A stretch of DNA of 64,000 nt. Origin: Tetracentron sinense. Lineage: Eukaryota > Streptophyta > Magnoliopsida > Trochodendrales > Trochodendraceae. This document shows positions 3,032 through 58,894 of this stretch, piece after piece. The DNA is taken from assembly GCA_015143295.1 (NCBI GenBank), contig CM026557.1, positions 35,225,965 to 35,289,964 of the forward strand, written 5' to 3'. The notes beneath the pieces are model-generated. The model saw only the letters and a program-made list of their open reading frames with translations. It searched no databases and was not told the origin of the DNA. Position numbers and translations under genes: made by a program. Position 1 is the stretch's first letter; each line of letters opens with the position of its first letter.

Positions 3032-4398
3032 CTAGTAAGAAACCCGTAGCGATGCACGGAAATAAGAGGAAACGATTAATAAGATGAAAGAATAAAAATT
3101 AAAATAATCGCTAATGTAATTCATGAATTATAATAAATGGGGAATGTGTAGTGATTGACTGTGATCTCAACAAATTGATTAGTAAGAAGCCTACATTTGG
3201 GTCTAGCATTTCTCAATTAAATTTTCAGACACCTCTTCACTTAACCTTCACTATTATTTTCGGAAATTAGAATAAAAGTGTGGTTAATTGCCAAAAAAAG
3301 AGTCCAGGTTTTTCCTAAAAAAGACCCCGCCAAAATTTTCACTCCATAAGGCTTTTAGTTTTATCATCAGCCTAATAAGAAGCCTGTGCATTAAATAGGA
3401 AAAGAATTGAATTAAAAAATTCAGTAAAACAAGAATTATGCATCATGATTTGTAAAATTATTAATTGTAACAAAATTAGGACATTGATTAGCCCAACACA
3501 CATTTGACCATGTAGTCAAAAGTCGTGTCCACGTGTCCCTATTAACACTTTTTTAACTATGGCTAAGCTTAAGAAAAATAAGGTTAGTAATTTATTGAAA
3601 AAATCAAGGTAATATTGCTTAACCTTAGGAGTGAGTGAATCTTAACCACCAGAGGCGATCTGGTTAGATATTTCTATCAACATAAAATATTGTCAGATTT
3701 AAGTGGAGAAACCCAATGAAACTGTGGCTATTTCCAAGGCATAAAATTTAGAAAAATTACAACAACGCAAATTTCATTATATATAAAAAAGGGATACACA
3801 TATCTCATCATCTCTAACGGAATAGGATTAGGGCGAGTTCTAACTACAGAACTATAACACATGTATAAAACTTTCTTATTAAATAATTTGCATGTATGCA
3901 TTCCTTCCTGCTTACGTCGTTTGTGTGTTTTTAAGGGTCTATTACAATAAAATAAACCCTCCCTACAACAACTATTACAATACAATATATGGCTATTGGA
4001 AAGAGTTTGAAGTGGGTATCAATATAGTCTATCCAAATCGCAGTCTCCCATTCCGACAGTTATCCACTAAGGATAAAAGGATGTGAAAGCCCGTGCTTAG
4101 AGACAATGATATCCAGGTAGGGCGCAAAATTCATCGACTTGGATGGACCTGTGTTGTCCTTTGACTTGATATCAAACGCCCAGAAGATGACGTCTCTCCT
4201 CCTCTCCCTTCCCATATCGTCTCTAGCTTTTCTTCTCTTCCCATTATCCCATATCATCTCTCCTCCTAAAGTTTGAGATATATGGAGGATGGGTTGTACA
4301 AAATTTTAAAGGGGGAGACGGTTGGTATTTAAAGAGGCAATAGGCACGTCCAATGGTATTTAAAACACTTTAACTGTGTTTTATAGTAGTAGTATAGA
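3032..4398 (-). mobile_element. Non-autonomous Helitron
   Basis: On the minus strand the 5' end is A|TCTATACTACTACTATA. The 3' end has a hairpin CCGTGCATCGCTACGG, a short spacer and CTAG|T. Insertion between A and T, a TC start, and a 3' hairpin followed by CTAG are Helitron hallmarks. Both ends match those of the Helitron at 44971-53768, so they belong to one family. 1367 bp, with no Rep/helicase coding and no gene fragment recognised. Confidence 0.82.
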
Positions 4399-24000: not shown

Positions 24001-27000
24001 ATTCCAAACTATTCTGAGAGAGAATTTTGTTTAAGAGAATGTAATGGAGTGATTTTGTATTCTCTTTGCTTTGATTTAGTGAAGAAGATGATCTCTCCAT
24101 GGACGTAGCCCATAAACAGGTGAACCAAGTAAATCTTGTGTGTTTACAGCTTGATATTTGCAATTTATTTTCACCACAAATTGGTATTAGAGCCAAGGTT
24201 CAAAGCAATGGCATCGAAAAGTTCCAGCACCAAGTTCGAAGTTGCAAGATTTGATGGGAAGGCAATGTCAAGACTATGGCAAAGTAGGTGAAAGATTTGT
24301 TAATACAACAACTCAACAAGGTTTATACAAAACGCTTAAAGGGAAAACAACGAAGCTAGAATCAATGTCTGCTGAAGATTGGAAAGATCTAAAACAAAAG
24401 GTTGTAAGTACCATCAGTTTAATCCTATCTAACGATGTTCTCTACCATGTGCTTAATGAATATTCGGCACCAGCACTTTAGACGAAACTTGAAAGTCTGT
24501 ATATAACGAAGTCATTGACTAAGAGGTCATTCCTAAAGCAGATTTTATACGGTCTTCGGATGAAGGAAGATGGAGATCTCATGGAACATATGAATGCGTT
24601 CAATAGAACGATCACTGAATTAGCTAGAGTTGATGAGAAAGTCTAGCAAGAAGATCAAGCACTAATAATACTCACTTCTCCCACATTTTTATGAACATCT
24701 CATTACAACCCTACTCTATCAAGTTAGATGATACTGTAGAATTAGATGATATGGTGAATTAGATGATACGGTAGTGGCCCTCCTCTCAAATGACACGAGA
24801 AAGAAAAGTCTAGACGAAGATGAAACACATGTTGAGGGTTTATTTGTAAGAGCCACTTATTCTAAATACATGAAGAGTCTTTCTTCATAAGGAAAGACGT
24901 GTGTCCCTAGCACTAACCTTATTATAAATATAATAATTAGCTTTAAAAGAAAATGTTGGTAGCATTAACCTTATTATAAATTATAGTTTTATTATTAGAG
25001 AGTGGTTAGTATTAAGTATTAACCTTATTATAAATTATAATTTTATTATTCTAATATTTTGTTATTAGTATATCATGCCCACAAGGGCTTTTTAGTAGTA
25101 TTTAAAATTAAATAATTTCTTAATAATATTTCATAAATTATTTAGTAGTATTTCTTAATAGTATTTTATAAACTAAATTGAATTTCAATTATTTATCAAC
25201 TTTAATGTGCATTCATAAGTTTTTCAGGTTTCTAAAACAATTAACATGGATAATCATTGAAAAATAAAGTAAGTACTTATCCACTTCACTTGACAAAAAG
25301 AATAAAATATAGTTAAATTATTTGACAATATACAGAAATATCAAGAAGAAATTACAGCTCAGACAAGCAGACAACGCATATCACTTAACACAATTCTCAC
25401 ATTTAAGTATTACATTCTTGCATCAGAAATATAATGAATCCTAGATGTATATTTATATTCAGTGAATTTCAAAAGTTTCATCTTTGATATTTAATGTTAC
25501 CTTAAAATTTCCTAGATTTCTTTATTTTTTACATAACTTCCTTGGACTTCCTTAAACTTCCTCGAAACATGTCAACTTCCTTAGCGACCGAAGTTTATAC
25601 CAAAACTGAAGTTTAATACCTTGGTAAGAGGGAGAAACAAATGATAAAAGTAAAGGTAAATATCAAAAGAAATGAAGGTCAAAATTATTAGCCTAAAGGT
25701 TACAACCTTAGGTACCTTTAATAATTTTGATGATAACACAATAATGAAATGATCATTGTGGTACTAATGGTTTTATCAAGTTTTTATGAAATTCAGATTA
25801 TAAGAACATTAGCGCTTCTTTCAAGGCATGAAGCATGAAAATGATCTCAAGTATTCAAAATGAATCAACAAAAGCAAGTCTTCAACCAAATGCAAAACAT
25901 CCATTCAAAGATGAAGACTGCTCAAAGTCAAAGCAAAAAGAGTCAAACACAAAATCAAGAAGTTAAAGTCCCACTTGAAGCCAAGATTGAAAATCGTAAT
26001 GAAGAACTCTTGGAAGATCATGAAGACAGAGTCAACATAGAAGATCCAAGAAAAAGTTTGAAGAACAACTCACAAGAAGGTTATAGTTTATTTTTTGTCT
26101 TGTGAGAGTGTCTAGGACTTTTGTAAAAAGTCCTCAAAGCTTGAAGGTTGAATTGCTCAAATACCTAGATTGACCATAGGAGCCTAAGATCATAATTCTA
26201 TATTAATTCTAAGGCCATAGGACATCATGAAAAATGAGGAAAATCTTGTTAAAGACAAGCCAAGTGACCTTGCAAAAGGATCACATCATTGAGAGACGAT
26301 TAAGATGAAATTAAAGAGAAAATTCAATGATCTCATCGACGAAATTACAAGGGTATTGGAATTTCGGCAACGAAACTGGCTTCTGAGCCATTGTCTCTTT
26401 TATGGCTTTGATTTTGGCGACGAATTGAGATGCCCACCCAATCTCGTCCATAAATTCATGCGGGAAACTAAAAATGTTGTAACGACTAGTTTTTAAACGG
26501 CCATTTTCGCATTTAATGTTCTCCAATAGCCATAATTTCTTAAAATGCTATAAAAGGAGTTCATTTATGAACAAACAACTCTTGATCAATGCAATAACTC
26601 TTATCATTTACTCTCAAGTTCACATTAATTTCTACATCGATCATACCCTAAAAATCTCAAATCTCTTTTATTGAGTTTTTCACTTCTAATCTATAAGAGA
26701 TTGTTAGAGTGCTTCAAGTCAATCTTATTCAACTCATATCAGAAGCAAACTTCTAGATTGAAATCCAATTATTCAAATTGTATTGTGAAATCAAGAATCG
26801 TGGAATCTTGTCCTTGAAGCGGGGAACTTTGTAAAAGCCAAGAGAGGATTGTTCTCTGGCAAGGAGAGGTTTAATCTTCACCCATAAGAAGATTGTAAAG
26901 GTTTTGTCTTCACCCAGAAGAAGATTGCGCGATAGTGAATCGTAGTGAATCCTTGAGCGGGGACGTCGGCAGGACGGGAGTGTCGAACCTCGAAAACAAT

Positions 27001-30000
27001 CATTTGTGTTTGCTCTCTCTATCTCTCATCCTTTTTTTAAAATTGCATTATTGTAGAATTGCTAATTTCCTTCCCTTGTTAATTAGTTTAATTTGAAATT
27101 CTGCAAAAAGGGAATAAGAAGAATTTTAAATTTGTCAAGACCCTATTCACCTCCCTCTAGGTTCCAATACTTGGGCAACGAAAATCCAAATTTGAAAAAT
27201 CACGACCTCAATGTCACAATTGTAAGAGATGATCACAATATGATAGACTACTGAATTCTGAAGGCAAAACAAGAAAAGGAATTGGAAAAAGGGAAAGGGA
27301 AAGCCTCAAATCAAGCTAGTATAGCTTCAAATGAAAGTAGCAACAAGCAAAGCCTTTTGCACACACAAGTAAGGAAGTTTTCCATTATTCCTGGATTCTA
27401 AATTTTGTCTATTCATACCATATATGTCCTGGTTTGACACATATAAAACCTATAATGGTGGAAAAAGGGAAAGCCTCAAATCAAGCTAGTATAGCTTCAA
27501 ATGAAAGTAGCAACAAGCAAAGCCTTTTGCACTTACACAAGTAAGGAAGTTTTCCATTATTCCTGGATTCTAAATTTTGTCTATTCATACCATATATGTC
27601 CTGGTTTGACACATATAAAACCTATAATGGTGGTATAGTTCTAAAGGGGAATGATGCAGTATTCAAGACAACAGGCATTGATACTGTAAGAATCAGAATA
27701 TTAGATGGAGTAATTCAAACTCTAACAGATGTTAGGCATGTACCTAAGATCAAAAGGAATTTAATTATTTTGGGTACAATGGAAGCGGTTGGGTGTAAGT
27801 ACACAACTTCAGGTGGAGCTCGGAAAGTAATCAATGGAGCCCTTGTTATTCTAAAGGGTGAATGAACCGGAACCCTATACAAGATAATAGGGGAAAATAT
27901 TACAGGTGGAGCCGCAATCAGTTCATCAAATGGGAATGATGAAACCAAGTTATGGCACATGCGTTTGGGTCATATGAGCGAGAGCCTTAATAAAACTTCA
28001 CATAAGAAAGCTCCTTAAAGGCATAAAGACATGCAAACAACAGTTTTGTGAGCACTGTGTTTGGGAAGCAATGCAAGGTGAGATTTGAAAGCTAGGGTTG
28101 AAAAGTAGACAGAAAGACAGGTGAATACACATCTGCAGAATTTAATAAATTTTGTAAAGATGAAGGTAGTGGTCTCAACTTCGCTACACCTATAAAACTC
28201 CACAGCAGAACGATCTGGCAGAGCAAATGAATTAAACACTCCTAGAGCGAGTTCGAAGTATAAGGATCAATGCTAGGTTGAAGGAAGATTTCTGGGTAAA
28301 AGCAATGAATCAACACAACCAATTTTTTGATCAACAGATCACACCTTCTACAGCTATAAAACTCAGGACACTGGAAGAGGTTTGGTCTTAAAAATCTTTC
28401 GACTATTCTAAAGTTAGAATATTCAGTTGTCCAACATACTGCATATGCACATGTGCACAGTGATCTACAAAGTAAGCTTGCTTGATGCAAAGTCAAAGAA
28501 GTGCATTTTTCTCAGTTTCGAGAAATGAGTTAAAGGCTACAAACTTTGGAATCTCAAAACACAGAAGATTGTTATAAGTCGGAACATAGTCTTTGTTGAG
28601 GCTATCATGATGAAAGAAGAGAAGCACAGTGATGGTGCAAGCGGCAGTAAGGAGGATTCAGTTCAAGAGGAGTTGATGAGGCATCCATGATAAAAGAAGA
28701 GAAGCACAATGAAGGTGCAAGCGGCAACAATGAGGATTCAGTTTAGGTGGACCTGGATAAATTTGAAATAGAGGATAGTGATGAAGAACAACCTCAGATT
28801 GAGACAGTCGATTAACAGTCACAACTAAGGAGATCACAACATGTACGAAATGCCCCCAGATCACAACATCTTACGGTTTGATGTACAAATATGGTAGCAT
28901 TTGCTCTTATTATAGAGAATGACAAACCGCCAAATTTCAAGTAAGTAGTGTCGGATAATGATCAACTGATCTTAGAAAGTGGAAGATGGCTATGGATGAA
29001 GAGATGGAATCGCGACACAAGAACCAGACATGGGATCTTGTAGAACTGCCAAAAGGGAATAAAGTAATCGGCTACAAGTGGGTTTTCGGAAAGAATGAAC
29101 CAACTACTGAAAGCAGAGAGCTAAAGTTCAAGGCTAAGTTGGTTGCAAAGGGTTTTTTACAAAGAGATGGAATAGATTTCAATGGAATTTTCTCTCCACT
29201 GGTTAAGCATACTTCTATTAGGACGATTGCCTATAATAGTTATGCAAGACCTAGAGCTTGAACAGTTGGATGTGAAGACAACTTTCTTACATGTGAGCTA
29301 GATAAGCAGATTTATATGCGACAACTAGAGGGATTTCAGGTGAAAGGAAAAGCAGAATATGTTTGCAAACTGAAGAAAGTTGTAGTCACCCAAGCAATGG
29401 TAAAGCTGTTTGACTCATTCGTACTGAAGAATGGGTATTCCAGAACTGGGTATGATCGTTGTCTCTATTTCAGAATACCTAAGAGACCATTCTTTCATAT
29501 TTCTAGCACTCTATGTGGACGACATGTTAATTGCTTCCAAAAGCATGTCAGATGTTAATGTTTTGAAGATGCGACTCAGTAATGAGTTTGAGATGAAAGA
29601 CCTAGTTGCAGCAAGAGTAATTCTAAGCATAGAAATCCGAAGAGATAGAAAATTGGAAAAATTATCTCTATCACAAGAGAGGTACTTAAGGAGAGTCCTT
29701 GCAAGATTTGAGATGCAAGATGCAAAGCCGATTTGTACACCTTTGATGGCTCACTATAGACTTTCTTCTTAATTGTGTCCAATTACTTATGATGAGAAGG
29801 AAAAGATGGTAAAATTTCCATATGCAAGCGTTGTGGGCAGCTTAATGTATGTTATGGTGTGCACTAGGCCTAACATCTCACAAGGTGTTAGTGTTGTTAG
29901 TAGATACATGAAAAAAAGGAGCACTAAAATGCATTGAAGTGGATTCTGAGGTACTTGAAGAGTACTCTGAAAGCATGCCTCTTTTTAATTTTAGAAAACA

Positions 30001-33000: not shown

Positions 33001-36000
33001 TTGGACTTGGTTAACAATCAATGAGATCGATTGAATTCTATACCCTTATAGTGGGTGTGAAGGTATCTTACGAGATGTAATATTCCTTCATCCGAAGCGG
33101 AGCAGAATTGAAGCCAGGGTGGAGAATATTGTGCAATTTGTCTTCATTCTACATTTCTACTGTAGACATATTGGCTCGAGCAAGCCAGAGTTGGCTCGAG
33201 CGAGATAGCTAGCTCAAGCGAGAACCAATTCGCTCGAGCCAAGAGGATTCAGTTTTTCGAATGAACAATTGAGTGGAAAACTCGAAGCCAACTGTCTTGA
33301 GCAAGAGAAAGTTCGCTCGAGCGAGTACTGCAGAGCCAGAATTAAATTTCCGAAATTCTAATTAGTTTTCAAACATAGGATATAAGATCTTTTTGGGTTT
33401 AGGGTTGCTAAGGCATTTCAAACTATTCTGAGAGAGAATTTTGTTTGAGAGGCTGTAAGGGAGTGATTGTGTATTCTCTTTGCTTTGATTTAGTGAAGAA
33501 AATGATCTCTCCATGGACGTGCCCATACCGGGTAAACCATGTATATCATGTGTGTTCTTGTGTGTTTTTTGTTCGATATTTGGAAGTTATTTTCACCACA
33601 AATTTTTGTAACCTTTGCTGTTTAGCCGTCGATATGGACAGATTAGTTAGAGATTAACCCAAGAGGAGTGATGGGGCAGTGTGGGGGCCAAAGTTGAGAC
33701 GGTATTTAAATTATTGGGAGATGGATAATTTCGGCAGGCTCTTTGAGCGCCTGGGGTCATCCTTTCTGGCTTCTCAAGGCAGAAACAATAAAATTTGGTC
33801 TAAAAGTCACAATGGTCGATTCTTAGAGATCTCGGTTGGCTATCTGGTCAGTTTTGTTTAAGGCAATTTCGTGGACAATATGGAAAGAAATGAACAAAAG
33901 AGTTATTGAGGACTCCAAAATCTACTTCTTCACGCATTTGTTCAAGGATTGAAATACTTGTAGCGGAGTGGTGTTCTACTCATCGTGAAGGAGTGAAGTT
34001 GGGAGACATATTGGCTTGACTATCTTGCATTGCTAGGCTCTTGGGCCTTCAGATGTGGGGTTCTATGCTTTTTACTTTTATTTCTCTTTCTTTGGGTTTA
34101 CGCACTTGTGAACTCTCTTGTTGTACTTTTTCTGCAGCTTCTTTCTATTAATATATTCGCTTGATTACCTATCAAAAAAATTCTCCCTTGAAACTGAATT
34201 GTAGAACCTTGATTTTGAAAAATCTACCCATTGATACTTGCAAGGGTGTTCATGGAACTCCTCCGACCAATGCTCATTCTGCAACCAATCAAGATAATTT
34301 AAATTAGAGTGGCATGCAAGCGTTGCCGCCATCTGTTACCTACAACCAAGAGAAATGTCCAGGTTCCCAAAGGTTTTTAAAAGTATAAGGCATTGCCTTG
34401 CTTGACTCAAGATCTGATACATTGAATTGAACATGCTACTAATCACGGGGTCTCTAAGCCTCCATATTTCATGCATTGAATATAACATATATCCTTATGG
34501 TTAAATTCAATCATTAGCTTCTAAAGACGAAATTGGTATGGGAGCTTCTTTTTCCTTTACATCTTAGACCTAAAGGAGAAAGGTAAAAGTAGAAAAAGGA
34601 AATGTATTTGCTTTCATAAAGATGAGACAATCAGGCTTTTCTCATGTTCCTAGTGGGAAACTAGTGAATAGTGTTTTCTGAAAAATATATTTATTACACC
34701 TTCACTTTAAAATTTACTATGCCAGGTCATGTCACTGTATTTACTCCAAAAAGATCAAGTTATATTCCTAGCATTGTATTTTTGCTCCCATAGGATAGAG
34801 GGTTGAATTATTTCCCAAGAACAGCATTATAACAACTTTCTTGCAGTATTCAGACATGATCTTAGTAGTAAAATGTAAGATCCAAAGGAGTAAATATTTT
34901 CCCAAAAGGGTTGAGTAGCAATTCCAAAAAGGTTTAACGAGCACAGTATTCATTCCACATGCCATCGTATACATATATGTGTGGCCATTGTAAATCTATA
35001 GTCATCATTCATCATGACATAAACGCATCAATTTATTTAATTTTTATTTTTTCATATAATCAAGAATTAGTATAAATAAGAAGGTTAAGTTGACAGTTAA
35101 CCCACATTAACTTCATACGAGATGTATTATTTTTTCTTTGATTGACAAAGCCAATACTACAACAAAGAGCATTTCCAACCATGATTGTTAAATTCTTGTG
35201 ATTTGCGATTTAAATCCTACAATTTGAATCAAATCTCAGGCAAAACGATTCAAATCGCTGGTGAAAATCTTAATTGAGTAAATCTCATTCGAATTGCGAT
35301 TCGGATTCAAATCGTACGATTCATGCGATTTATGCGATTCGAACACGAACCCCTGTTACAGACCGATACTTTAAAAAATATTTTTTATTCTTTTCTAAAC
35401 TACATAATGTCTTTTATGAAGAAAGAAGAAACGGAAAAACCCCTGTTATGGACACGCCAAAATCCCTATTTGAGTTTTCTCTATGTTGCTGTGAAACGGG
35501 AAAAAAATAGAATAAGTGAGGAAAAAGAAAGAGGAGAGTTAGAGAAATGGATTATGGGAGAACTTGATAGTTTATTTTATTTATCTTTTTAATTGTACAA
35601 GTCTTTTGATACTTGATCTCATACAACTTTATTATATGAGTTTACTTTTGTTGATTTAACTTTGGTGATATCCATTGTATAGTGTATGCAATTTAATGTT
35701 CATTACTTTCTTTTATGGATAGATATGAATAAAATCTGTTGGATAATAGATTAATCTATTTTTCTGATTTATTAAGTAATGTTTTGTGTCTTTTTTTAAC
35801 AATTTTAAAAACAATGGATTGAATCTTACGATTTACGATTTGAATCCCAATTTGAATTGAATCTGTCCTAAAACGATTTTACGATCCGATTACAATTTAA
35901 TAACCTTGTTTCCAACAGCTCCATAATAATCATTTTGAAAAAGAAATAGGTCCTAAATTCCTACCGAAAAAAGAAAAAAAAAAAGAGAAACCTAGAAACT

Positions 36001-41447: not shown

Positions 41448-41894
41448 CTGAGAGCAATGAAAAAACGTTGCATTGAGAACAATGCAAATATGCTCAACAA
41501 TTTGCATTTCAAATCAAGCACTCAACTTTCATATTTATAAGAACGGAAAAAAAGGATAAAAAGAACAATGTTCACACTTCATTAGAACTCAAGTACAAGG
41601 TACAGCACAATCAAATTGTAAAGAAATTAAATAGAAAAAAGAGAAAAAAAAAAAAAAAAAGAGAAAGCAGAGTATAGCCAAAATAACAATCAGAAATAAA
41701 TGCTACGTAGAGTCTCTTTTCTTTTTGACTCTCTGGCATGATAGGCAAATTTTTTACTTCTCTTCTTATAAAGCTGGAACTACTAATGAAATCGACAACA
41801 TTCCCTTTAGTCCTTTACATTGGGGTGATCTTCTAATATGGATTTCGACAATGCCTAATAGCAGTGTTGTAGGTTAAATTTGTCTCAATTCCGT

Positions 41895-42090
41895 TGATGT
41901 GGATGGTTATTCAACACTTCAATGCCAGATTCATAATCTAACATTGGTCTGATCACAAAGAGGGAACCGTGTATCAGCATTCATAGGTGCTTTGATGTGG
42001 ATGGTTATTCAACACTTCAATGCCAGATTCATAATCTAACTTTGGTCTGACCACAAAGAGGGAACCGTGTATCAGCATTCATTCGTGCTT
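41895..42090. repeat. Tandem duplication, 98 bp unit
   Basis: 41895-41992 and 41993-42090 are nearly identical (ggatggttattcaacacttc, caaagagggaaccgtgtatc), with three or so substitutions. Recent. Confidence 0.92.
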
Positions 42091-43330: not shown

Positions 43331-44776
43331 TTGTGGAAGGCATCATATCTCTCCAAAGGGAGGCGATTCACCCTCCTTAATAGTGTCTTGAACAACCTCC
43401 CAACATAATTCCTTTCCCTTTTCTCCAACCCCGTGTCAGTAGCAGAGGAAAGCATCTAAAAAAAACTCCTCTGGAACGAGAAAGTGGTGAAACACAAATA
43501 TCATCTCGTTGACTAGCAAACTGTCAGCTTCCCAATTGAAATGGGTGGCCTAAACATTCGGCCCCCTCTCTCAGTCTTCAACAAGGCCCTTTTGGGAAAA
43601 TGGCTATGGAGATTTGGCTTTGACCATGAACACCTCTGGAGGAAAGTAATCATGTCAAAGTACAGGTCACTCTCTAACTAAGAACCCCTGCCACCCATGA
43701 CTCCCATGGATCAGGCTTGTGGAAAGGCATTATGTCAGGCTGGATTTTCTCTCTGCCAATATCAGCTTTCGAGTGAGGAGAGGTCATATTCTAAACAAAC
43801 AATTGGTGTGGTCCTAACACCCTTAGCAACGACTTCAGCTCTATTTGGTTCTTAGTATCTGATAGATCTGCTACAGTGTAATCCTACATTGAGTATCCCC
43901 TGAACAACAAAGTCTAGTGCCCTCGGTTGAAGTGTAACCTCAACGACTGGGAGTTTTTTTTTGTTTTGGATCAAACGACTAGGAGTTAGACATCCTTCAA
44001 AACCTCCTCACCCGACTTCACCAAGTTCCCACCTCCCCCACCCTTAGGGATATCCGTCTGTGGTCTAGAGACAACAAAGGTCAATTCTCAGTGAGATCCC
44101 TTTACCAGGCTTTACTTCCTACCTCTGATCATCCTTTCCCTTGAAGATCGGTATGGAAGGCGGGTTTGCCTCCCAAAATATCCTACTTTCTTTGGTCTGC
44201 AACCTTGGATAAGATACAAACATGCAACCACCTTATGGGTTGAAGGTGGCAGATGGGGCTGTTTCATGTGCCTGGACGTTGAGGAGACGATAGATCACCT
44301 CCTACTATGCCCTTTCGCGCATAAGGTTTGGAGTTACTTCCTCTCCCGTCTAGGAATCAGCTGGATCTTTCACCACTCCTTTCAGGACTTCTTATCCTAT
44401 AAGTTCTTGGTGTTATTGGGGGAAGAGGGTTTCAAAGGGGGTCCATTGCTACTCGCATCGATAGTCTGGTCTCTATGGAAAGAAAGGAATTCAAGGGTCT
44501 TCGAGGACTCCCCCACATCTTCTGCCAACACCTGCCTAAGGGTCGGTCATCTCTTGAAGCATTGGTGCTCCATCCTAGAGAATTTTGATTTAGCTAGGTT
44601 ATCCTTTCTATTGTAAGAGCATGTCTACATTTTGCTTAGTATTACATTGTTTCCATTTTAGCTAGTTTTGGGCTTGAATTCACCATCTTGTGACGTGGGC
44701 TTGGGTTCACACTCTTGTGACCCCTAGACCCTCCATTGTACCTCTTCTTTTTCAATATATATTACCAATCAAAAAA
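43331..44776 (+). pseudogene. LINE, 5'-truncated, with clear target duplication
   Basis: Flanked by the 12 bp repeat ATAAATTGAGCC (43319-43330 and 44777-44788) and ending in an A run. It starts inside the linker (WKASYLSKGRRFTLLNSVL), continues with [20 protein letters not shown] and ends with the zf-RVT region at 44266-44616: CLDVEETIDHLLLCPF, WSYFLSRLGISWIF and WSLWKERNSRVFED. Textbook target-primed insertion, several stops. Confidence 0.9.
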
Positions 44777-44788
44777 ATAAATTGAGCC

Positions 44789-44970
44789 CTAATTGAAACA
44801 AATGGTATACCAAAACATCAAGATTAGACCTTGAATTGATTACTTAGCTATTTTGATTCAAGATTGGAATTTTGAATTGAAATTCTCAATTTTACAGAAA
44901 TCACTAAAAGTTGAATAGAGTTGGGAAGTAGTTGTGTTATGTGTGTTTGCATTTGAATAGGGTTTTAGAA
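44789..44970 (+). repeat. Gypsy 5' LTR, segment 2
   Basis: Continues from the LINE target site (aaattgagccctaattg...) to the Helitron insertion point at A44970. Confidence 0.55.
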
Positions 44971-45403
44971 TCTATACTAATACTATATGCTGGTTGGTGC
45001 CACGTGACATACCTCAAATCTCTCGATTCTCTCTTCAGTTTGATGCCACATGTCTGCTTACATGACACTTTCATCATAGTTTATCCAATCAATTAACGCC
45101 ATGTCATTTGGCTTCCTATGTAATATTTCTAAATTAATGACACACATAACACAATGATCATTTAATAACTTTTATTTTTCTAACCGTTACCTCTTTATTA
45201 TTATTTTTTTTTGATAAATTGCACACTTTATTAAACAAAGCAAAAAGAACAAGGAACACCAAAACAACCAAAGAGTTTACAGGCAAGTAAACTCAACCAC
45301 AAAACCTATCACCACTCCAACCCCCTAGATGCACAACCTCACGACAGCTCAAAGTTTAGAATTTCGTCCCTAGGACCAAGCACTCTCACCTACTCTAAAA
45401 TAG

Positions 45404-48400
45404 TTATCGGATGCGGTTACACATATGTGGTACTGTGGACGAGACCCCGTCGAAGACTCTCCCATTTCTCTCTTTCCACAGAAGCCAAGAAACCGCCCCA
45501 GGAAGGACACCCCACACCGCCGCCCTCACCCCTTCCCCTCTTTCCCAAAACCAACACTGCAACAAATCCCGCAAGGTCGAGGGAAAGACCCAAACTACCC
45601 CCAATCGAGACAAAAAAAAACTCCACACCTCTATTGCCACCGGACAATGAAGAAGAAGATGGTCCACTAATTCTTCCGCTTGAAGGCACATAAAACACCT
45701 GTTAGGCAAACTCCAACCACGGGCCTGCAGGTTATCCATCGTGAGAATCCTGTCCAACACTGCGGTCCATAAGAAGAACGAGACCTTAGAAGGTAACCCA
45801 CGAAACCAAACAGCCCTAGCGGGAAATAACCTTTCCTCCACCGCCAGAAGCGAATGGTACAATAGATTTACTGAAAACCTCCTTACTCTGTCCTTGCTCC
45901 ACAACCTACAGTCCCGAACGTCTGGATAGATGGTAGACCCCGATAAGCGCTCCAAGAGTCGGACTAAATCTTCCAACTCCCAATCATTAAAGTCCCTTCG
46001 CAATCGAGGACACCAAACCACACCCGATGCATTCCTCTCGTAAGAATCAACCACTAGCACGTCCTTGTCTACCCACTAAACTGAAGAGATTACCAAAATC
46101 ATCCATAAGTCTTGTCGAACCTGACCAAACATCCTTTCAGAACCTTATCTCCGACCATCTCCCAACCCGATAGCGAAAAAAAGGCACTACCAATCCCGCC
46201 GTTGCCATAATCCCCTTCCAAAATCCCAACCCATGAGGCCCTCTGACCTCCCGAGGAATCCAACAACAACTCTCACCGTATTTGGCTACAATCACCTCTC
46301 GCCATAGACTGTTTCTATCCACCCCAAATCGCCACACCCACTTACCTAGCAAAGCTTTGTTCATTAGGGTTATCAGCTTGAGGCTCAGCCCACCCTCATC
46401 CTTTGGACGACACATATCAGACCAAGCAACTAGATGAAACTTGGCATAATCCCTTCTATCGTTCCAAAGAAAGTCTCTCTGCCTCCTCTCAATCCTAACT
46501 GCTACTGAACGAGGGATGGTAAGAGAAGACAAGTAGTAAGTCGGGAGACTCTGCAACGTACTCCGAATCAAAGTCAATTTCCCCCCTTTGGACAAATAGG
46601 AAGGCCTCCACCCAGATAATCTCCTCTCAATACGATCAAGAACTGGATTCCAAACGGATTTCATTTTGTAACTCGCCCCCAAGGGCATCCCTAAATACAC
46701 CGAAGGAAGAGAACCCACCCTATAGCCCAGGCAAACGGCCAGATGATTCATAATAGGGACCTCCCCAACCTTCACAATTTTAGACTTTGCCAAATTAATA
46801 CGGAGCCCCGACACAACCTCAAAGCACCTAAGAATGCATCTGATATTCAGAAGATCCCTTCTCGAAGCCCGGCTAAAAATAAGTGTATCATCCGCAAATT
46901 GAAGGTGCGAAATCCTCGGACCATGATTACCAATCTGAAAGCCTTTGAACAAAGTCCCTTCAGCTCTAGATACCATCCTACTTAACGCTTCTGAAACAAT
47001 CACAAAAAGAAATTGAGGAATCGGATCCCCCTGCCGTAACCCCCTAAAGCTGGGAAAAAATCCCACCGGACTGCCACTCACCAACACTGAAAATGAGACT
47101 GAAGCTATACATGACCGCATCTATATCCTCCACTTAGTACCGAAACTCATCCTTCTAAGGACATAGAGAAGGAACTCCCAATTGACATGGTCGTAGGCTT
47201 TCTCCATGTCTACCTTGCACAGAATACCAGGATTCCGATCCCACACCCTAGAGTCAATGCATTCATTGGCCACCAGAATTCCGTCGATGATTTGGCGGGC
47301 CCCCAGAAACGCACTCTGCTGAGGGGAAATAATAGAAGCCATCACAACTTTAAGGCGAGACGCCAACACCTTAGAGAGGATCTTATAGGGACTACTCACA
47401 AGGCTTATTGGCCTAAAGTCTTTGAGCTCCACCGCCCCTTCCTTTTTGGGAATCAAAGCAAGAAACGAGCAATTCATCACTCTATCAAATCCCCCTGTAA
47501 CAAAGAACTCCTGCATCACTGCCAAGAAATCCCTCCCCACAACATCCCAACAACCCCTGAAAAATTCTATCGTAAAACCATCTAGACCTGGCGCTTTATC
47601 CCCCTCCATCCCCCGAATAACACCAAGAACCTCCTCCTCCTCAAAAGGGGCCTCAAGAACCAACCTCTGATCCTGAGACAACACTCCAAACTGGATCCCA
47701 TCCAACTTGGGCCTCCACCTCTCCCTCTCCCGATACAGGTCCTTATAGTAGGACACAATGCTATCTTCCATCTCGCTCTTGTCTTCTACCCACCTCCCAT
47801 CCACCTGCAATTTGGAAATGAAGTTCTTTTTACGGTTAAAATTTGTCATTCTATGAAAGAACTTTGTATTACCATCCCCTTCTTTGAGCCAGCGCGTCCG
47901 AGCTTTTTGCTTCCAACTTATTTCTTCGAGCTTTAAGGTCGAGATATAATCTAACTTCTTCTCCTCTCTCTCTCAATTCTCAGTAACCGAGAGCTCCCGG
48001 GTCTCGGCCACACCATCCAACTCCGTTATGCCCCTCAGCAAACTAGCTAACCGCTCTAGAATATTCCCGAAGACCTCCTTATTCCACACTTTTAGACGAG
48101 CCTTCAACAATTTGAGCTTGATGCTGAAACGGGTGCCGCGGACCCCCTTCCAATCTCTTGATCCCACACCTCGCCTACAATCCCTCTCAACCTCTCATCC
48201 TCCAACCACATATTCTCAAACCGGAAAGGACTCAGCCCCCCCACAAAACATCCCGACTCCAAAAGAAGCGGAACATGATCGGAAATGGGACGGGGTAGAG
48301 AGGATTGAGTCATATTCGGGAAATGCTCCTCCCAAACTTGATCCACAAGAAAGCGATCAATACGACTCGCCACCCTATCGTTCCCCGCTTGAGCCCAAGT

Positions 48401-48958
48401 GAATTGAGCCCCCCTGCAGGGGTAGTCGATTAGCCCATAACGGTAAATGAAAGCCCCAAACCTCCTCATCTTCGCCGTGACCGCTCCTCCCCCTCTCCTT
48501 TCCGAGGAGATACGGATACAGTTGAAGTCCCCACCCAAACACCACGGCTTCCCCCAACGCACACTAACATCATCCAACTCCTCTCAAAACTCCACATCTT
48601 TTGCCCGACCAACTGGACCATACACACCTGTGAAGACCCAAGTAAAATCTTCCCCTATCAACCGGCACAAAATGGATACCGAAAATGCTCCTATTTTCGA
48701 CTCCATCACTTCCACCCTCATCTTGTCCCACATCAACAATATTCCTCCTGACGCTCCCAACGACGGTAGTGCGCTCCACCCCGACACTTGATTCCCCCAC
48801 ATATCCCTTAAATGGTGTTCCTTTATAGCTGCTAGCTTAGATTCCTGAATACAAATAATAGATGGCCTCTTAGTTCTTATGAACTCCTTAACCGCCACCC
48901 TTTTCTCCAGTTGCCCCAAGCCACGAATGTTCCAGGAGAAAATGGATAACCCTGTCAT
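45404..48958 (-). pseudogene. LINE ORF2: endonuclease, reverse transcriptase, zinc finger
   Basis: The ATG at 48958 overlaps the ORF1 stop (ATGA). Endonuclease: FSWNIRGLG, CIQESKL, GGDFN, SRIDRFLVD and SDHVPLLL (48958-48104), with one in-frame TGA at about 48584. After a frameshift near 48110 the linker includes an in-frame TGA near 47973. Reverse transcriptase (47849-46137): [39 protein letters not shown] and LQFADDTLIF, with the catalytic DD kept, and one TAG at 47121 probably from TGG. A frameshift near 46100 leads to the zinc finger CFMC...DHLLLHC and WLLWKERNGRVFDG (46060-45404). Confidence 0.92.
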
Positions 48959-51703
48959 TTAAACATCCGGCAACCCCTTGCTGACCTAGGGCTAGAAGAC
49001 GCCCCTTGCTTTCTAGCACGATCATAGTTCACCGTGCATGCTAATCTCCTGGCCTCCATAGCCAAAGCCCCCTTCGCCCCCATAGCCAAAGCCTCCATAG
49101 CCAAAGCCCCCCCCCCCCCCCTCTGTGCCACCTTCAGTTTTAAGAAATAAACCCCTAGCCTCTGCCTAGTACCCTGTTGTCGACACACTTAACGCCGAAC
49201 CCGCCTCCTCCACATGCTCCACCACCCACTCTGCCACCTCAACCTGACTCATCTGGGGTAACAAAGTCAAATTAGCATCCTGCTTGAGACCATCTGACCT
49301 GAGCACGATCTCAGGGCCAGGGGGAGCTAAACACAGAACCGAGACAGAGAAGCACTCTTGAACCTCTACTACCGAATCACCAGACGTGGACACAATCTGT
49401 CTTGCACAACTCAGGCCCGACAAAGATTGAAACCTAGGTTCGTAATCCTTCCCTACCGAGGTCGAATCTACTGAATTCTGATGGACCACCTCCTCAGCCG
49501 ACTGCCTCTCTGTGACACAAAAATCAAGACCAAGAGCTGAACTCTCCCCTTCTCCAACGCCCTTCTCACCTGAGCTGACATCGCAGGTTAGAGACCCCAC
49601 ATTATCCACCCCGTCTAACGGAGGAGCAAGCCCCATCTCAGAGAAGACCAACGGTGTGTAGTGTTCCAGCTCCGCCTCCTCTGCACCAACATCCCAGAAT
49701 TTACCTACCGCGCCACAAAATTCAGAGCCACTACTCACAATCCTCTGATCACATCCGAACCCTACCTCCTTCTCCTTAGAGAGCAACCCCACAGTCCCTC
49801 ACCTAGATCTGGAGTCACATAGCCACTGCCCTCCTCTGCATCATGCCGACAAGTTGTATTCGACTCCTTTGTCAAGCTTCTGTTATCTCCTTCTCGTCTC
49901 CTGTTCGGGTTGACCTTGCTGCTCAACTCAACTCCCCTCGTAGCCACAGCAAACTTCCCTCCAGATGAAAACTCCACGCCCTTTCCAGAACTAGAAGGAA
50001 GCCCCTCCCCTTCAGGTCTTGATCTAGGGTCGACCTTTATAGGATCCAAAACTACTGGACCCTCCTGGGCTGTTAGCCCAACAATAACGCGATCCGAAAC
50101 TACGGGCCCACCACTCAGCCCTAAGGTTAGCACATGCAGGCCCTCCTTCGCCTCCAGAACCCCGCTCGTGGGCCTAGTCTCCGACCCAAGTCCAACAAAA
50201 ACTGAATAATCCTCCAGCCCAATATCCACTAGACCAGGAAAGCCTCCACCCGATAAAGTAGGTCCATTCGAACTAGGCCCTACAACCTCCCCACCAGTGG
50301 ATTCCATCCCATGATCAGATTTGCTTAAAAAAGGAGACACCTCTGAAGTCTCTCGTCTTCCCCGCAGGGTTTTCTTTTCCCACCTAACCCTACGTCTCCT
50401 CCAACTCCTCTTTTGGTTCTTCTTTAGAAGATTACCTCCGTACGTCCCTCCTCTTACCAAAATGGTGTTATCAGCTACCACCCTCCCAAGAGAAGGTAAG
50501 TGCTTAGACTTCTGGCCTTCTGTCCTGCCTTTCAGTTCCGCCACTCCCCGCCCCTCTCTGAGCAGACTGCAACCCTGTTACCTTCTCAGCCCATGTGACA
50601 GCATTCTCTACCCCCATAACCACTAGTCTTCCTCCACCTTGCACTGCCGTACTAGGTTCTCCCTGCCCCACTGACCGTTCTGCCTCTCCACTACACCTCC
50701 TGACAAAATTCGAAATTTCCTCCACCTCCCCCTGCCGGAAACTCCTTGCTCCACCGGAATCCCCCGCCTCTCCATCCGATAATACTGATACAGCAATCCA
50801 GTGGATCTTACCTCTATCTAGAACAAACAAAACACGAGGTATTTCTTCCCTCTTAACGGAATCAACCTGGATCCTGGCTTCCCGGAGATCCGAAAGTGTT
50901 GCTGTGTTATGAGCAATGCCTCTTAGCCCTCCGCAAGCGGCCCCAATCCAGTGGAAGACATTCGAATTCCACAAATGAAGAGGAAGCCCTTGAATCCCTA
51001 TCCAGAAGGAATCCACAAAGAACAACTCAGGTAGGGAGTTAGAATGAGGCCACCATCTGTTAATCCTCAACGAGCCTCCTCCCGGTACCTGCCAGGGAAC
51101 TCCTTCACACACTTCTGAAACTGAGTTCAAATCCATCACCACTACTAACCCTCTCTGGTCCCCATATGGGATGATGCAGGGTTGCTCCTCTCTCGGCAGC
51201 AACGAGCCAACGATTTTCCTTATCTCTGACCAGCTGGTAACAGGAAGAGAGGAGGAGACCACCAAGGCCTTGTCCCACCAACCCTTCAACTCCACGCCCT
51301 CTGGCTCACCGGGAATAGAAGGCCATACAGCTTTGTCCTTCACATATAGCTTCCTAGCCGTCGCAGGACCCTCCTTCACGAACTCAATCGGACTGATGGA
51401 CTTCAACGCCCCCAACACTCCCTCCCAACCAAACCCATTCTTGGCCTTAGGAAAGATAACCCACTTCCCGTGCCCTCCGACCCTGGAACATGATGACAGG
51501 GATATGAACGCACCCTTCGAATTCTGTTTCTGCTCCACAACATACGCTGCCGACGCTCCTCTGCATCTCTCCACCCTGTACTTCTCTTCTTGGAGTCTCA
51601 CGCAATCCCCCATGAACCGTTGGAACCACCAAAAGGCGCATTCTTCCAATCGAAGCTCCACCGAACGCCCTCTACCGCATTCTTCCAATCTCATTTGTCT
51701 CAC
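48955..51703 (-). pseudogene. LINE ORF1 (RNA-binding protein), frameshifted
   Basis: Reads from ATG at 51703. WIGIQGLPLHLWNSNVFHWI near residue 240 marks the DUF4283-type domain of plant L1 ORF1, preceded by a W-rich N-terminus (AFWWFQRF). The frame shifts near 50540 (next frame ends at 49762), near 49790 (ends 49166) and again near 49180. The C-terminal part is low complexity, with a repeated ALAME unit (49050-49115). The final stop TGA overlaps the ATG of ORF2. In intact elements the protein binds LINE RNA. Confidence 0.82.
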
Positions 51704-52050
51704 CCAAGAAAATTACATTTCATCTTCCTATGCAAGGAGTTTCCGAAACTCTTCATGTACTAAGGAGATTGTTTCTCTCTCCCATTATGACTATTGATTG
51801 ATAGAAGAAGTATTAAAGGTGGACCTATACCATCATTACACCCATTTATCTTCCCAATGAAACTCCTACATCTCTCCAGCTCTCTCCCTCTCCATTCGTC
51901 CCCAGCCCGAACCCCTCAAAAATCATTCTTCCCTTCTAATCTCACCCATTTATCTAAAAAAAACCTCTCCCTCTACTTTCATCTTCCATCTATCTCCCCA
52001 TTTCCTTTTGCCCTCCTTCAATCTCACTCTATTAGTCTATCTTAACATGC

Positions 52051-52155
52051 TTGGAGGTCATGGCTCAGTTGTTGAAACCATTAGATGTGAAGGACTTTCT
52101 CTTTGGGTCGTTGGATGTCCCATTGGTCAACCTAGAGACAAGTTTAACAAACTAT
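52051..52155 (+). pseudogene. Captured coatomer subunit gamma exon a
   Basis: Encodes DVKDFLFGSLDVPLVNLETS and LTNY, the conserved segment just before the hinge of gamma-COP. It ends at a preserved donor (ACTAT|gtaagg). Lies inside the Helitron; not a functional gene. Confidence 0.82.
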
Positions 52156-52232
52156 GTAAGGTGTTCTTCTGGCTCTTTATCTACTCTACCATTAACTTCA
52201 ACACCTCTTATATGTGTATTATATGGATACAG

Positions 52233-52430
52233 GGACCTCTAGAAGAACCTTTTGATATTGATTCTGTACTTAAGGAGGTTTTAAGTCACGACCTCTTACT
52301 GAGAAGAAAGGCCCTGGTAAAAAGCCAATGGGCTTAGGTTCTCTCAGTGGGCCCACGTCCACTGTTGATGCTTATGAAAAAATGCTTTCTTCGATCCCTA
52401 AGTTTTCAACCTTTGCAAGCTTTTCAATGT
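52233..52430 (+). pseudogene. Captured coatomer subunit gamma exon b
   Basis: After an intact acceptor (ggatacag) it encodes GPLEEPFDIDSVLKEVLS, then after a one-base shift near 52290 EKKGPGKKPMGLGSLSG and DAYEKMLSSIPKFSTFASF. This is the gamma-COP hinge (EEPFDI...EKK.PGKKP.GLG...YEKLLSSIPEF). The 77 bp intron between exons a and b is retained, showing capture of genomic DNA and not of a processed copy. The 3' border is approximate. Confidence 0.82.
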
Positions 52431-52532
52431 TCTTTTGCTTGATTTTCTTTTTTTGTACACTACATGCACGTTAGTGGTTCATTAATAATATTTTACTGAG
52501 ACAATTTTTTATTTGTTTATTTTATATTTCAG

Positions 52533-52602
52533 TCACCTACACCTGTAGAGCTAATGGAAGCTGAAACATAATACATGATTAATGCTGTTAAGCCAAAGTG
52601 AA
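52533..52602 (+). pseudogene. Captured coatomer subunit gamma exon c
   Basis: Acceptor tatatttcag, then SPTPVELMEAET*YMINAVK, matching the gamma-COP appendage start (PVELTEAETEY). One stop where E is expected (TAA from GAA). Homology ends after NAVK. Confidence 0.78.
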
Positions 52603-53742
52603 ACCCCAAATGGGACTTCTAGTGGTCAGTGGTGCCTCCATCAGTCTCATCCATGACTTTAGTGTTAAAACATCTGTTTTGTAGTCTTTGTTTTGTTCTC
52701 TGTCTCTTTTAATTTTTTCTACTTAGAGATGCATTTTTGCTTGGTCTTTTTTTAGGTGGAAATGGTGGTATATTAGTATGACATGAAATAACATATTTAA
52801 TTTTTTGTTTCTTGGATGTTTTATAAAATATACCATCCTTAAAAAAAAATTACGAAGATTTCAGCCTAGCATTTTTGTCCATAATAATTACCATTCCATT
52901 TGTTTTCATTAGGATTGTCTTTAACCATTTGATTGAATATATTGCCAATTATGAAAAGGGGCAAGCTTCAGTTCTTGTGGATGAAGAGGATTGTCATCAA
53001 CTATTATGAATTTTTATATTGATAAGTATTACTGAATCCTGTAGTTGTGTGACTGTAATGTAACTGTTGTATCCTTTTTCATTTGATAATTTATTTTTTT
53101 TTGGTTTAACTAGATTAAGGGAGTAATCCGATCGAAAAGTTATGAAGATCAAATTCATGATATGTTTCCTGTTATTACTACCACTCTTAAGATTAGTTGC
53201 AACATGAAACCCGAAAAGTTCGCATAAGTGCTAATTTCAGCTTTTGTAATATTTGCAAAACATATTCTTACTGAATAAGAAAAAAGCTTGTCCTCTTTTT
53301 CTTTCCTGGTTCTTTCCATGCATGAATTTGTTATTGAATGCTTCATTCTAATATCTACAATTCCACTGTCTCAAATAGTTAGTCTAAGGGGGGTTATTAT
53401 CATTTTTTTAAACACTTATTTCTACAAGAAGCTTAAAGAAATTGTATCATACAAGAAGTCTAAGGGGTGATTTTCAATTTTTTTACGATGAAACTGATAC
53501 AAGTAGGTGCCGACTCAAGTGGACTGAGAAGCATGGCTACAAGCTATCACTTTGCGAGCATTTCTATAGAAAACATGTATACTTAGTAAGTAGAGATGGT
53601 TGTTCTTAAGTTCTTGCATACGTTTGAACAAAGGGTAGTGTTTTTTATAATACCAATTATTAGTTGCATATGCTTTAACACTTCTAGCTTTTGTGCTTCT
53701 ATTATTATAATTATTATTATCCTACTTTATTTTTTTCCTACC
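52603..53742. other. Helitron interior, unassigned
   Basis: AT-rich. Short protein-like stretches near 53115-53225 and 53500-53560 may be further captured fragments but match nothing I recognise. Confidence 0.35.
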
Positions 53743-53768
53743 CGTGCATCGCACGGGGTATGTGCTAG

Positions 53769-53891
53769 TTATTCTTAGAAACTAATTGTGATCTATTATT
53801 GGAATTCCGAACTATTCTAGCCCTAAAATTGGTGATTGATTTATAATTATCTGGAACTAATTAGAATTACAAATCAACCCTAACTATATCA
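53769..53891 (+). repeat. Gypsy 5' LTR, final segment
   Basis: Ends in TATCA just before the primer-binding site. Continues the LTR after the Helitron. Confidence 0.55.
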
Positions 53892-55520: not shown

Positions 55521-56046
55521 TTTTTTATCGGTAAATGTAATATTAAATAACAAAGAAAAAAAGAAAAATACATGCTACAAATTCACAAAAAGTGAACCTA
55601 AGGCAAACGAAAAGATAAGACAAAACCCCAAGAAAGGGAAACAAGTAAACAGTGTGTCGCCCAACGAATGCCAACAAGATAAGAAGCCTTGGAAGATACA
55701 GGAAAAAATCTAGGCGATACCAATTTAGGAAAGAAAATAATACCCGAGGCTCCTTGCGAAAGAGCAATGCAAGAGGCAAGAGCAAGTGATCAATGGATTC
55801 CTCCTCTACAAGGCACAAATAACAACGGTTTGGTAGACTCCAACCTCTACTTTTGAGATGATCTAAAGTTAAGATCTTGTCTAGAAATGTTGTCCACATA
55901 AAAAGGATACCTTTGAAGGTACACCAACGTGCCACACAGCCTGCCGAGGAAAAATAGGATAGCTACCAAAGTTTAGCGCCTATCGAAAGGACTTCACATT
56001 TCACAATAAACGATTTTTGTTGTCACTAGACCAAACTCAGCTATCC
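55521..56046 (-). pseudogene. LINE-B 3' part: zinc finger region
   Basis: The T run at 55521-55526 is the tail. Minus strand: AVWHVGVPSKVSF, then ILTLDHLKSRGWSLPNRCYL with CLVEEESIDHLLL, the zf-RVT zinc finger, and upstream ARDS*VWSSDNKNRL. The text breaks at 56046 and resumes at 58900 as SVRPVLSA, so the LTR insertion between them is secondary. Confidence 0.85.
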
Positions 56047-56051
56047 CTAGC

Positions 56052-58894
56052 AATAGAGCCCTAGATTTCACGTGCACTGTTCAAGTGAAAAGCGTTAGTG
56101 TACAGGGCATGCAAAGGCCTAAGGCCTACCATGTGTTCGTGATATTAGGGAAAGTGAAGTGAGAATTTTATATATGTATGTTGAGTCTCAAAACAAGAGT
56201 ATAATAATACTCAAGTATCTAGGGTATATAATACGCTAAGTGCGAATGTAGAACCCCAGGAACCCATTTCACAGTGCTGTGAATAGTGTCATGGGCACAA
56301 GTATTGTAAAGGTCGAAGGTCATTTATGTAATTATGTAACTTGGTTTATGAGGCATGATAAGAATAGTTTAAATTAGTTTAAGTGTTGTTGTTGGGTGTT
56401 TGGGATGAAGAAACAAGAATATAACATACTCTAAGCGTCGTGAAAAAGGGATGTCTTTACATTTCGTCAGCTTGTGGGAGCTCTAGTTTTGTCGTCGCTT
56501 ACCGGAATTGAGTGATTCTTGAATTTTTGAAAAGATATTGAAGCCCTCTTCGAGGTTCCTGCTTTACACTTTTTCAGATTTTGATCATAAGTTATGTCAA
56601 ATGTGAGGTTTTCGAAAGGTGGTCTACTGTCGATTCAGCAGTTGAAAGACGAGTCCAACACAAGTTGAATCGTCAAAATCCGATAAGCGAGTCAAAATTT
56701 ATGGTCAAAATACCGAAGCAGGAAAAACAAGAACCAGGGTGACCAACCCAGTCGACCGAACTTCTAACCGGTCAGCTGGGTTTTTGGTCTGTAGCCGACT
56801 CCCAGTGATATTTTAAGGGTGGTTTGGGGTTTTGGCAACCCCCAAACCCTTATATAAACCCAAGAATTCGTGGGTAAGGGTTCCAAAACCCTAGAGAGAT
56901 TTTGAGAGGGGTTTTTAGAGAGGAAGAAGAAGAGAAGGTTGGGTTTTTCTTGGGTTGTTCTTAGCTTGAGTGTTGGCTTGAGTTGTGAACCAAAGAGAAG
57001 ATCGTTTCTATTTCAAGGTGTCTTCCTCGGTGCATTCTCAAGCGAATTAGATCAAGGGATTGATCTAGGAAAGGTATAACATTCTACTAGCTTCTCATGT
57101 TATGATTCATTATTGATTAATTATGATATCATGTATAGTTTATATGAAAAGTATGTTACTAAGATAAAAAGGAAGTATATTCAACCCTTAGCTATCTTTG
57201 TTGAAATTCATCTATGACAAATAAAGTGAAAAGTAAGTATTCAATGGAATGATCTGTTTTGACGAAAAGTGTGAAAGAATAAGATGGAAATTTTGGTTTT
57301 CATGAAAGTAGTAAATACTACCCTTAACTAACCTTGTTGAAATTCAATTATGAAAAGTAAAGTTAAACCATATGTTTTGAATAAAAGTGAGGTTTTTCAA
57401 CAAGGCAAAACATGAAGTTATGGATTTTGATGGAATTGGGATTTTAAACCAAAATATAAGTATGTTATTGGAATGATAGAATGAAAAGAATGATGTATGA
57501 TGAACTTAGGGGAATTACCCTATATATGTGCCTATGTGAATGTTCTGAAAGAAAATAGAAAACCATGTGCTATGCAATATGTGTATTGTTTTGAAAGAAA
57601 AGAAAAGCATGTGTTATGTATTATGAACTCAAGTGACATGTGTTATAGTTTTGAAAGAAAATACAAAAGCATGTGTTATATGTATGTGTCATGTGTTATA
57701 TGAATAGAAGAGTATGTGAATTGTGATATGTGTTTCCACTGTTTACCATGTGCAACACAAGTGCCTATGTACACGACATGTGCAAAAACATGTGAAATGA
57801 AAAGGAATGCTCGGATGCTAGTATGCGACGGACTGTGATACGGCAGCTAGGCATACCCCAATTCCAATTTTGTATGTTCTGTTATGAAAAGGAATGCTCG
57901 GATGCTAGTATGCGACGGACTATGATACAGCAACTAGGCATACCCCAATTCCAATTTTGTTATGTTTTGAAAAGGAATGCTCGGATGCTAGTAGCGATGG
58001 ACTATGATACAGTAGCTAGACATACCCCAATTCCTTTTCTGAACAGTTCTGTTCTGAAATTGAAATGTCATTTTCTGTTCTGAAAGTGAGGTAATTGTAA
58101 AGAGTAAAGGATGTGAAATAGGGTAATTGTAAAGATATGATGAATGTGTGAAATATGTGTTTTGAAAAGTGAAGGATAGGATGAAAATGATGAAAGTATG
58201 GTTTTAAAGGAAAAGTTCGAAAAACATGTGAATTGAAAGTATTTACGAATGCTATTGAAATGTGTCGATCGAAGTAGGATTTTGAAAAAATATGCACATG
58301 TTGGTTTTAAAAAGGACTCTGGTTTCCGCTCTCTGATTTAAAGTGAGTTTTATTCCGCCTAGTTCCATATTGAACTGCCTTATTCTATTAATATGCAAGC
58401 ATGTCATGATAGATATTCCTAACATGGTTAGCTAGTAGTTTGTAGACGCTGAGCATTCCATGCTCAGTCGTACATTATATGTCGGCATGTGTATTTGGCA
58501 TTTGCAACCCAGAGCTATGGGTTGAAGAAGAGTAAGTGGAAGAGGATCCTGTTTGGGGTAATCTTGTGAAGAGAGGGTCTTGACAGGCGACCCTATTATT
58601 ACTGTTTTGGGTGATGTGAGGGAGAGACATGTATTTTGGGTTTTCTTTTGGGATTTTGTATCGGGTTGAGTTAGTAACTCAAGCAATGGATTTGATGTAC
58701 ATATTAATTGACTCTTGTAATTGGAATACAGTTAAGTTATTAAGAAATTTTCAGGTTCACCTGAACCTTTTAGCATGCCTTGTATGTTCTTGCAAGATGG
58801 TATGTACGCCTTATGTGTCATGACAAGGTGGTATGACATGGCGGTCACGAGCCAAAAGTCTCCTAACTCCTAGGGGGGATTTTGGGGTGCGACA
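56052..58894 (+). mobile_element. 2.8 kb gypsy-type LTR insertion with duplicated 5' end
   Basis: CTAGC target repeats lie at 56047-56051 and 58895-58899; removing the insert restores LINE text PVLSARDS. The right end is GGGGTGCGACA. An LTR start TGTAGAACCCC lies at 56247, giving a 2648 bp LTR to 58894. The 195 bp before it (aatagagccctag... 56052-56246) is a diverged copy of the LTR start (TAGA.CCC.AG, ATTTCAC, AAAGG.C.AAGG.C). No coding. Probably a solo LTR of a Tekay/Del-like gypsy that underwent a tandem 5' duplication. Confidence 0.75.
57799..58045. repeat. Three tandem copies of an 83-87 bp unit inside the LTR
   Basis: Units start at 57799, 57886 and 57969 with gaaaaggaatgctcggatgc and contain ggcataccccaattcc. 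The third is truncated. Close identity suggests recent expansion. Confidence 0.93.

Follow-up and report, generated by a model that had tools for sequence, protein, structure and literature searches.

A fragment of a coatomer subunit gamma (gamma-COP) gene, comprising parts of three exons and the two introns between them, lies within a Helitron at positions 44971 to 53768 (+) of the window, the whole 64,000-nucleotide stretch of DNA analyzed here. The Helitron has defined termini in an A/T insertion site, the gene fragment is decayed and a decayed L1-type LINE is nested beside it. We consider it very probable that this arrangement arose when a non-autonomous plant Helitron captured the gene fragment at the DNA level, together with the insertion of the LINE and decay.

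The gamma-COP fragment

We found that the region between 52035 and 52592 (+) is homologous to plant coatomer subunit gamma, where the first-pass annotation had recognized the same homology within slightly different limits (52051 to 52602). Three reading frames together encode gamma-COP peptides in the order that they occupy in gamma-COP, including the four peptides quoted in that annotation. Exon piece 1 (52035 to 52155) lacks its 5′ end and encodes VYLNMLGGHGSVVET and DVKDFLFGSLDVPLVNLETSLTNY. Past intron 1, exon piece 2 (52233 to 52428) is a whole exon that encodes PLEEPFDIDSVLKEV, KSRPLTEKKGPGKKPMGLGSLSGPTSTVDAYEKMLSSIPKFSTF and KLFN, and past intron 2, exon piece 3 (52533 to 52592) encodes SPTPVELMEAET*YMINAVK, being cut after the final AVK.

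The homology exceeds chance. A 122-residue query of the piece, with X at the breaks, was searched against 5.8 billion proteins, and all 24 candidates matched at E ≤ 0.01; the best match was an unnamed Camellia sinensis product (E = 7.9e-33), and three of the 24 carry names (one coatomer gamma, one unnamed product and one hypothetical protein). Padding the query with X, so that full-length proteins could be reached, gave matches at E ≤ 1e-10 for 230 of 341 candidates, and the 120 of these matches that are listed are mostly plant proteins annotated as coatomer subunit gamma. The piece also matches the solved coatomer gamma-1 (5a1u, E = 1.1e-5) and, as a query with X at the break, the appendage-platform family PF08752 in Pfam (27.2 bits, cut-off 25). 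By BLASTP, the highest score belongs to Rhododendron molle (176 bits, 96/130), with Vitis at 175 and others as near. A tree of the piece and 50 flowering-plant gamma-COPs, sampled from the 120 listed proteins, leaves its position unresolved, with a long branch, an odd make-up and bootstrap values that do not settle it. Altogether, about 560 bp of the gene are present, accounting for some 126 of about 889 gamma-COP residues, and tblastn of 13 gamma-COP proteins (out of 145 proteins) against the whole 64-kb window located no further gamma-COP stretch (E ≥ 0.16 elsewhere).

Both introns retain their GT...AG ends. Intron 1 (52156 to 52232, +) is 77 bp long and intron 2 (52429 to 52532, +) is 104 bp long, and the three splice signals reported earlier are all present (ACTAT/gtaagg at 52156, gatacag/GG at 52232/52233 and atttcag/TC at 52532/52533). 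The earlier count of three captured exons holds for parts of three exons, while its single intron becomes two. We compared the intron positions with those of independent relatives by using predicted proteins that read into introns. The position of intron 1 is the same in P0003, P0004, P0012 and P0015; the first two contain 24 and 26 extra residues, respectively, between ...LKNY and EPSEE, and the other two likewise read on past LKNY. The position of intron 2 is the same in P0002, P0003, P0004 and P0006, which read on past GKLFK or GNLFK.

The same proteins locate the breakpoints. VRDRAT precedes LYLN or LYIN in P0003, P0004, P0012 and P0015, but homology in the window starts only at VYLN, without VRDRAT, and consequently the 5′ breakpoint falls inside an exon; judging from these read-through proteins, the exon would begin at VRDRAT. 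At the 3′ breakpoint the piece stops after ...AVK, from which point full-length relatives continue with HIFD. Both ends of the piece are cut within coding sequence.

Compared with the proteins, the fragment contains three frame breaks, one in exon piece 1 and two in exon piece 2, and one in-frame stop, in exon piece 3. The first-pass annotation was correct about decay and the single stop, and it had counted one frameshift in place of three. The fragment is unable to make gamma-COP and is dead; it is not a full-length open coatomer subunit gamma gene. An intact gamma-COP gene is ruled out by the frame breaks and by the lack of further exons, and a pseudogene derived from spliced mRNA is ruled out because the introns are retained.

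Gene models in other plants show related arrangements. Two Camellia sinensis models (P0099 and P0123) fuse the same gamma-COP stretch to unrelated sequence, one of them with a PF05184 domain, and an Ilex paraguariensis model (P0026) contains the stretch twice. Duplication or capture may have affected this region of gamma-COP elsewhere as well, unless the Camellia and Ilex models are wrong.

The Helitron and its nested LINE

The Helitron spans 8798 bp (44971 to 53768, +), between an A at 44970 and a T at 53769. Its ends read A/TCTATACTA at 44971 and a hairpin with a perfect 7-bp stem, followed by CTAG/T, at 53768. The 5′ terminus, TCTATACTAATACTA (44971 to 44985, +), begins with TC and was found by motif search with 0 mismatches; four such motifs with at most two mismatches occur in the window, compared to 0.53 expected. 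The 3′ terminus (53741 to 53768, +) consists of a 17-nt hairpin (53741 to 53757) with a 7-bp stem and a 3-nt loop, a 7-nt spacer and CTAG (53765 to 53768), so that the hairpin stops 11 nt ahead of the end; motif search found it with 0 mismatches (0.00 expected by chance). In the available text of PMC2702305, Helitrons are defined by a CTRR-3′ end preceded, some 8 to 12 nt before, by a hairpin of about 16 to 20 nt. The gamma-COP piece has the same orientation as the Helitron and lies 1176 bp before its 3′ end.

The window contains two exact copies of ATCTATACTA, one on each strand (the minus-strand copy at 4398), and hairpin-CTAGT ends are found on the plus strand at 23961 and 53765 and nowhere on the minus strand. 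Only one pair of ATCTATACTA and hairpin-CTAGT is correctly ordered within 20 kb. Such a pair appears on 4 of 400 shuffled strands (200 dinucleotide-preserving shuffles), a figure that is only a rough guide because the terminus criteria were fixed after the element had been seen. The minus-strand motif, TCTATACTACTACTA at 4384 to 4398, is a second Helitron-like 5′ motif, for which no minus-strand hairpin-CTAGT partner was found.

The limits of the element in the first-pass annotation stand, though it made no mention of the L1-type LINE that fills most of the element (45204 to 51712, −). The limits of the LINE are approximate: 51712 is the outermost ORF limit, and a T-run at 45204 to 45212 is read as the poly-A end. 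Reverse transcriptase, endonuclease, zf-RVT and DUF4283 are present in order on a single strand, which identifies the LINE as L1-type. The individual matches are DUF4283 (E = 1.6e-15), two endonuclease pieces (E = 5.4e-5 and 0.0015, both below the curated cut-off), a reverse transcriptase split over two ORFs (E = 5.5e-14 and 1.2e-9) and zf-RVT (E = 3.1e-23); two further LINE ORFs have no domain match. None of 7998 scored candidates was a relative of the DUF4283 ORF at E ≤ 1e-20. The LINE has a G+C content of 0.50, and the Helitron sequence to either side of it has 0.33 and 0.32. A comparison of 45120 to 45225 with 51560 to 52060 revealed no convincing target-site duplication, which leaves both the limits of the LINE and the sequence of events uncertain.

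The LINE takes up about 6.5 kb of the 8.8 kb, which leaves only about 2.3 kb (230 + 2056 bp) of Helitron proper. Self-BLAST of the window found no second copy of the element; its non-LINE parts matched only themselves. Among the 24 stop-to-stop ORFs of at least 35 aa outside the LINE, none contains a Helitron Rep/helicase family according to Pfam, and none has an above-cut-off match or a second captured gene; four sub-cut-off matches (E from 0.001 to 0.12) belong to unrelated families. Five hand-cut pieces of the Helitron outside the LINE had no Pfam match, and one of the five had no PDB match. Weak matches to unrelated chains (E from 0.0076 to 0.73) that arose in another search are taken as chance. 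We therefore read the Helitron as non-autonomous, since the missing Rep/helicase bars autonomy and not Helitron identity. Neither Rfam nor a tRNA scan gave any match in the window.

Other repeats are scattered through the window. Two LINE relics lie near the Helitron, at 55543 to 55962 (−; zf-RVT E = 4.7e-11, above cut-off) and at 44095 to 44616 (+; zf-RVT E = 0.01, below cut-off). A 300-nt direct repeat (23798 to 24097 and 33212 to 33511; 86% identical, 9.4 kb apart) could represent LTRs or a single repeat present twice. A series of blocks of 60 to 176 nt (79 to 90% identical) is repeated between 20975 to 21746 and 24922 to 25623, about 3.9 kb apart. Tandem duplications occur at 27294 to 27633 (74 + 99 nt units, 97 to 100%), 41894 to 42089 (98-nt unit, 96%) and 57797 to 58042 (77-nt unit, three copies).

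Proposed origin of the gamma-COP fragment

By the account that we favor, a non-autonomous Helitron would have taken up a gamma-COP fragment, exons and introns together, from the DNA of a donor gene located elsewhere. The element would move by rolling-circle transposition, using Rep/helicase supplied by another element, with its 3′ hairpin acting as the terminator, and the capture could have taken place by terminator bypass or during repair. Excerpts of the Helraiser study (PMC4778049) describe capture by bypass of the 3′ hairpin terminator in rolling-circle transposition, and in maize, the portion of PMC3288121 at hand describes capture as stepwise. Decay of the captured piece would have followed, giving three frame breaks and one stop, and the later insertion of an L1 LINE on the minus strand beside the piece probably brought the element from about 2.3 kb to its present 8.8 kb. 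The capture proposed in the first-pass annotation is supported by the defined termini, the cuts in coding sequence, the shared intron positions and the lack of any other gamma-COP stretch in the window.

The evidence also bears on how else the piece could have come to lie here. It could be what remains of an old gamma-COP duplication, local or segmental, with Helitron-like ends paired around it by chance. Such end pairs do occur on about 1% of shuffled strands (4/400, the rough guide given above), and the window contains an extra unpaired hairpin-CTAGT at 23961 and an extra ATCTATACTA at 4398 (−). However, just 560 bp or so of the gene remain, cut at both ends in coding sequence, in 64 kb that hold no other gamma-COP stretch, and a 3′ hairpin motif without mismatches is not expected by chance; we regard a duplication relic as very unlikely. 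Another class of capturing element, such as a Pack-MULE or CACTA, may have brought the piece and been nested in the Helitron itself, as these elements are described in the accessible parts of PMC8903248 and PMC1947982 as capturing pieces of plant genes. Yet none of the 11 inverted-repeat pairs (at least 20 nt, between 44000 and 55000) lies near both breakpoints. Three inverted repeats (I1, I4 and I9; 70 to 80% complementary) are arranged around the piece, two enclosing it at long range and the third spanning it with an arm outside the Helitron; they look like chance. We regard an origin by Pack-MULE or CACTA as very unlikely.

The retained introns had been taken to point to DNA-level capture. 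They do argue against an ordinary spliced mRNA and in favor of DNA, but an antisense RNA also keeps its introns, which leaves a small place for an origin by way of the LINE. By that route, the L1 LINE would have brought the piece as a 5′ transduction, from a transcript antisense to the gene that kept its introns. Its orientation agrees with this route: the LINE lies on the minus strand with its 5′ side (about 51.7 kb) toward the piece, and the piece is antisense to it. In opposition, about 320 bp without any match separate the LINE ORFs from the piece, and the regions flanking the LINE (45120 to 45225 and 51560 to 52060) lack a convincing target-site duplication. We consider this route very unlikely.

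Known Helitrons and significance

Exon-and-intron capture of genes by plant Helitrons is already known, and the present case is a clear but ordinary one. The closest parallels are the GIGANTEA Helitrons of Lolium perenne, which, in the available text of PMC2702305, share the A/T insertion site, the 5′-TC and CTAG-3′ ends and the subterminal hairpin. They carry an uninterrupted stretch of a single gene, exons and introns included, that is cut inside an exon and has acquired frameshifts and stops; part of a non-LTR retroelement is even present in one Lolium copy. In contrast to the present case, the donor gene and several copies are shown for Lolium, and both the gene and the plant differ. The maize elements Hel1-4 and HelA, as far as the excerpts of PMC10095026 and PMC3288121 describe them, also have ATCTATACTA...CTAGT ends and carry gene fragments on non-autonomous elements, a likeness that consists of end motifs and the fragment-carrying habit alone, without sequence alignment. 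For the maize construct Hel1-4, the consulted part of PMC10095026 gives ends of GA/TCTATACTAC...ACTAG/TC and tabulates full and empty sites. Helraiser and Helibat likewise share 5′-TC and CTAG-3′ ends and, as here, a palindrome 11 nt from the 3′ end, according to the portion of PMC4778049 used. Helraiser is the experimental basis of terminator-bypass capture, in a bat element and cultured cells; sequence gained by its read-through is appended to the 3′ end, but the gamma-COP piece here sits 1176 bp inward from that end.

Gene fragments are reported on more than 90% of identified maize Helitrons in the excerpted PMC3288121. For Arabidopsis and rice, the excerpted PMC2575219 describes gene capture as far less frequent. 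Among the matches listed from the open-access literature, we found no report of a gamma-COP gene in a Helitron.

Prior to the arrival of the LINE, the element might conceivably have produced a spliced RNA containing gamma-COP exons, because both introns keep their GT...AG ends, or antisense or small RNAs acting on the host gamma-COP gene. We consider any such output very doubtful; if an RNA did act on the host gene, then the scrap would have a regulatory effect.

The identity of the captured gene has little general weight. As an instance of a plant Helitron capturing exons and introns, the case is clean: its breakpoints lie in coding sequence and the nesting of its elements can be read. If sister copies exist, the gamma-COP piece would help to date both the capture and its spread.
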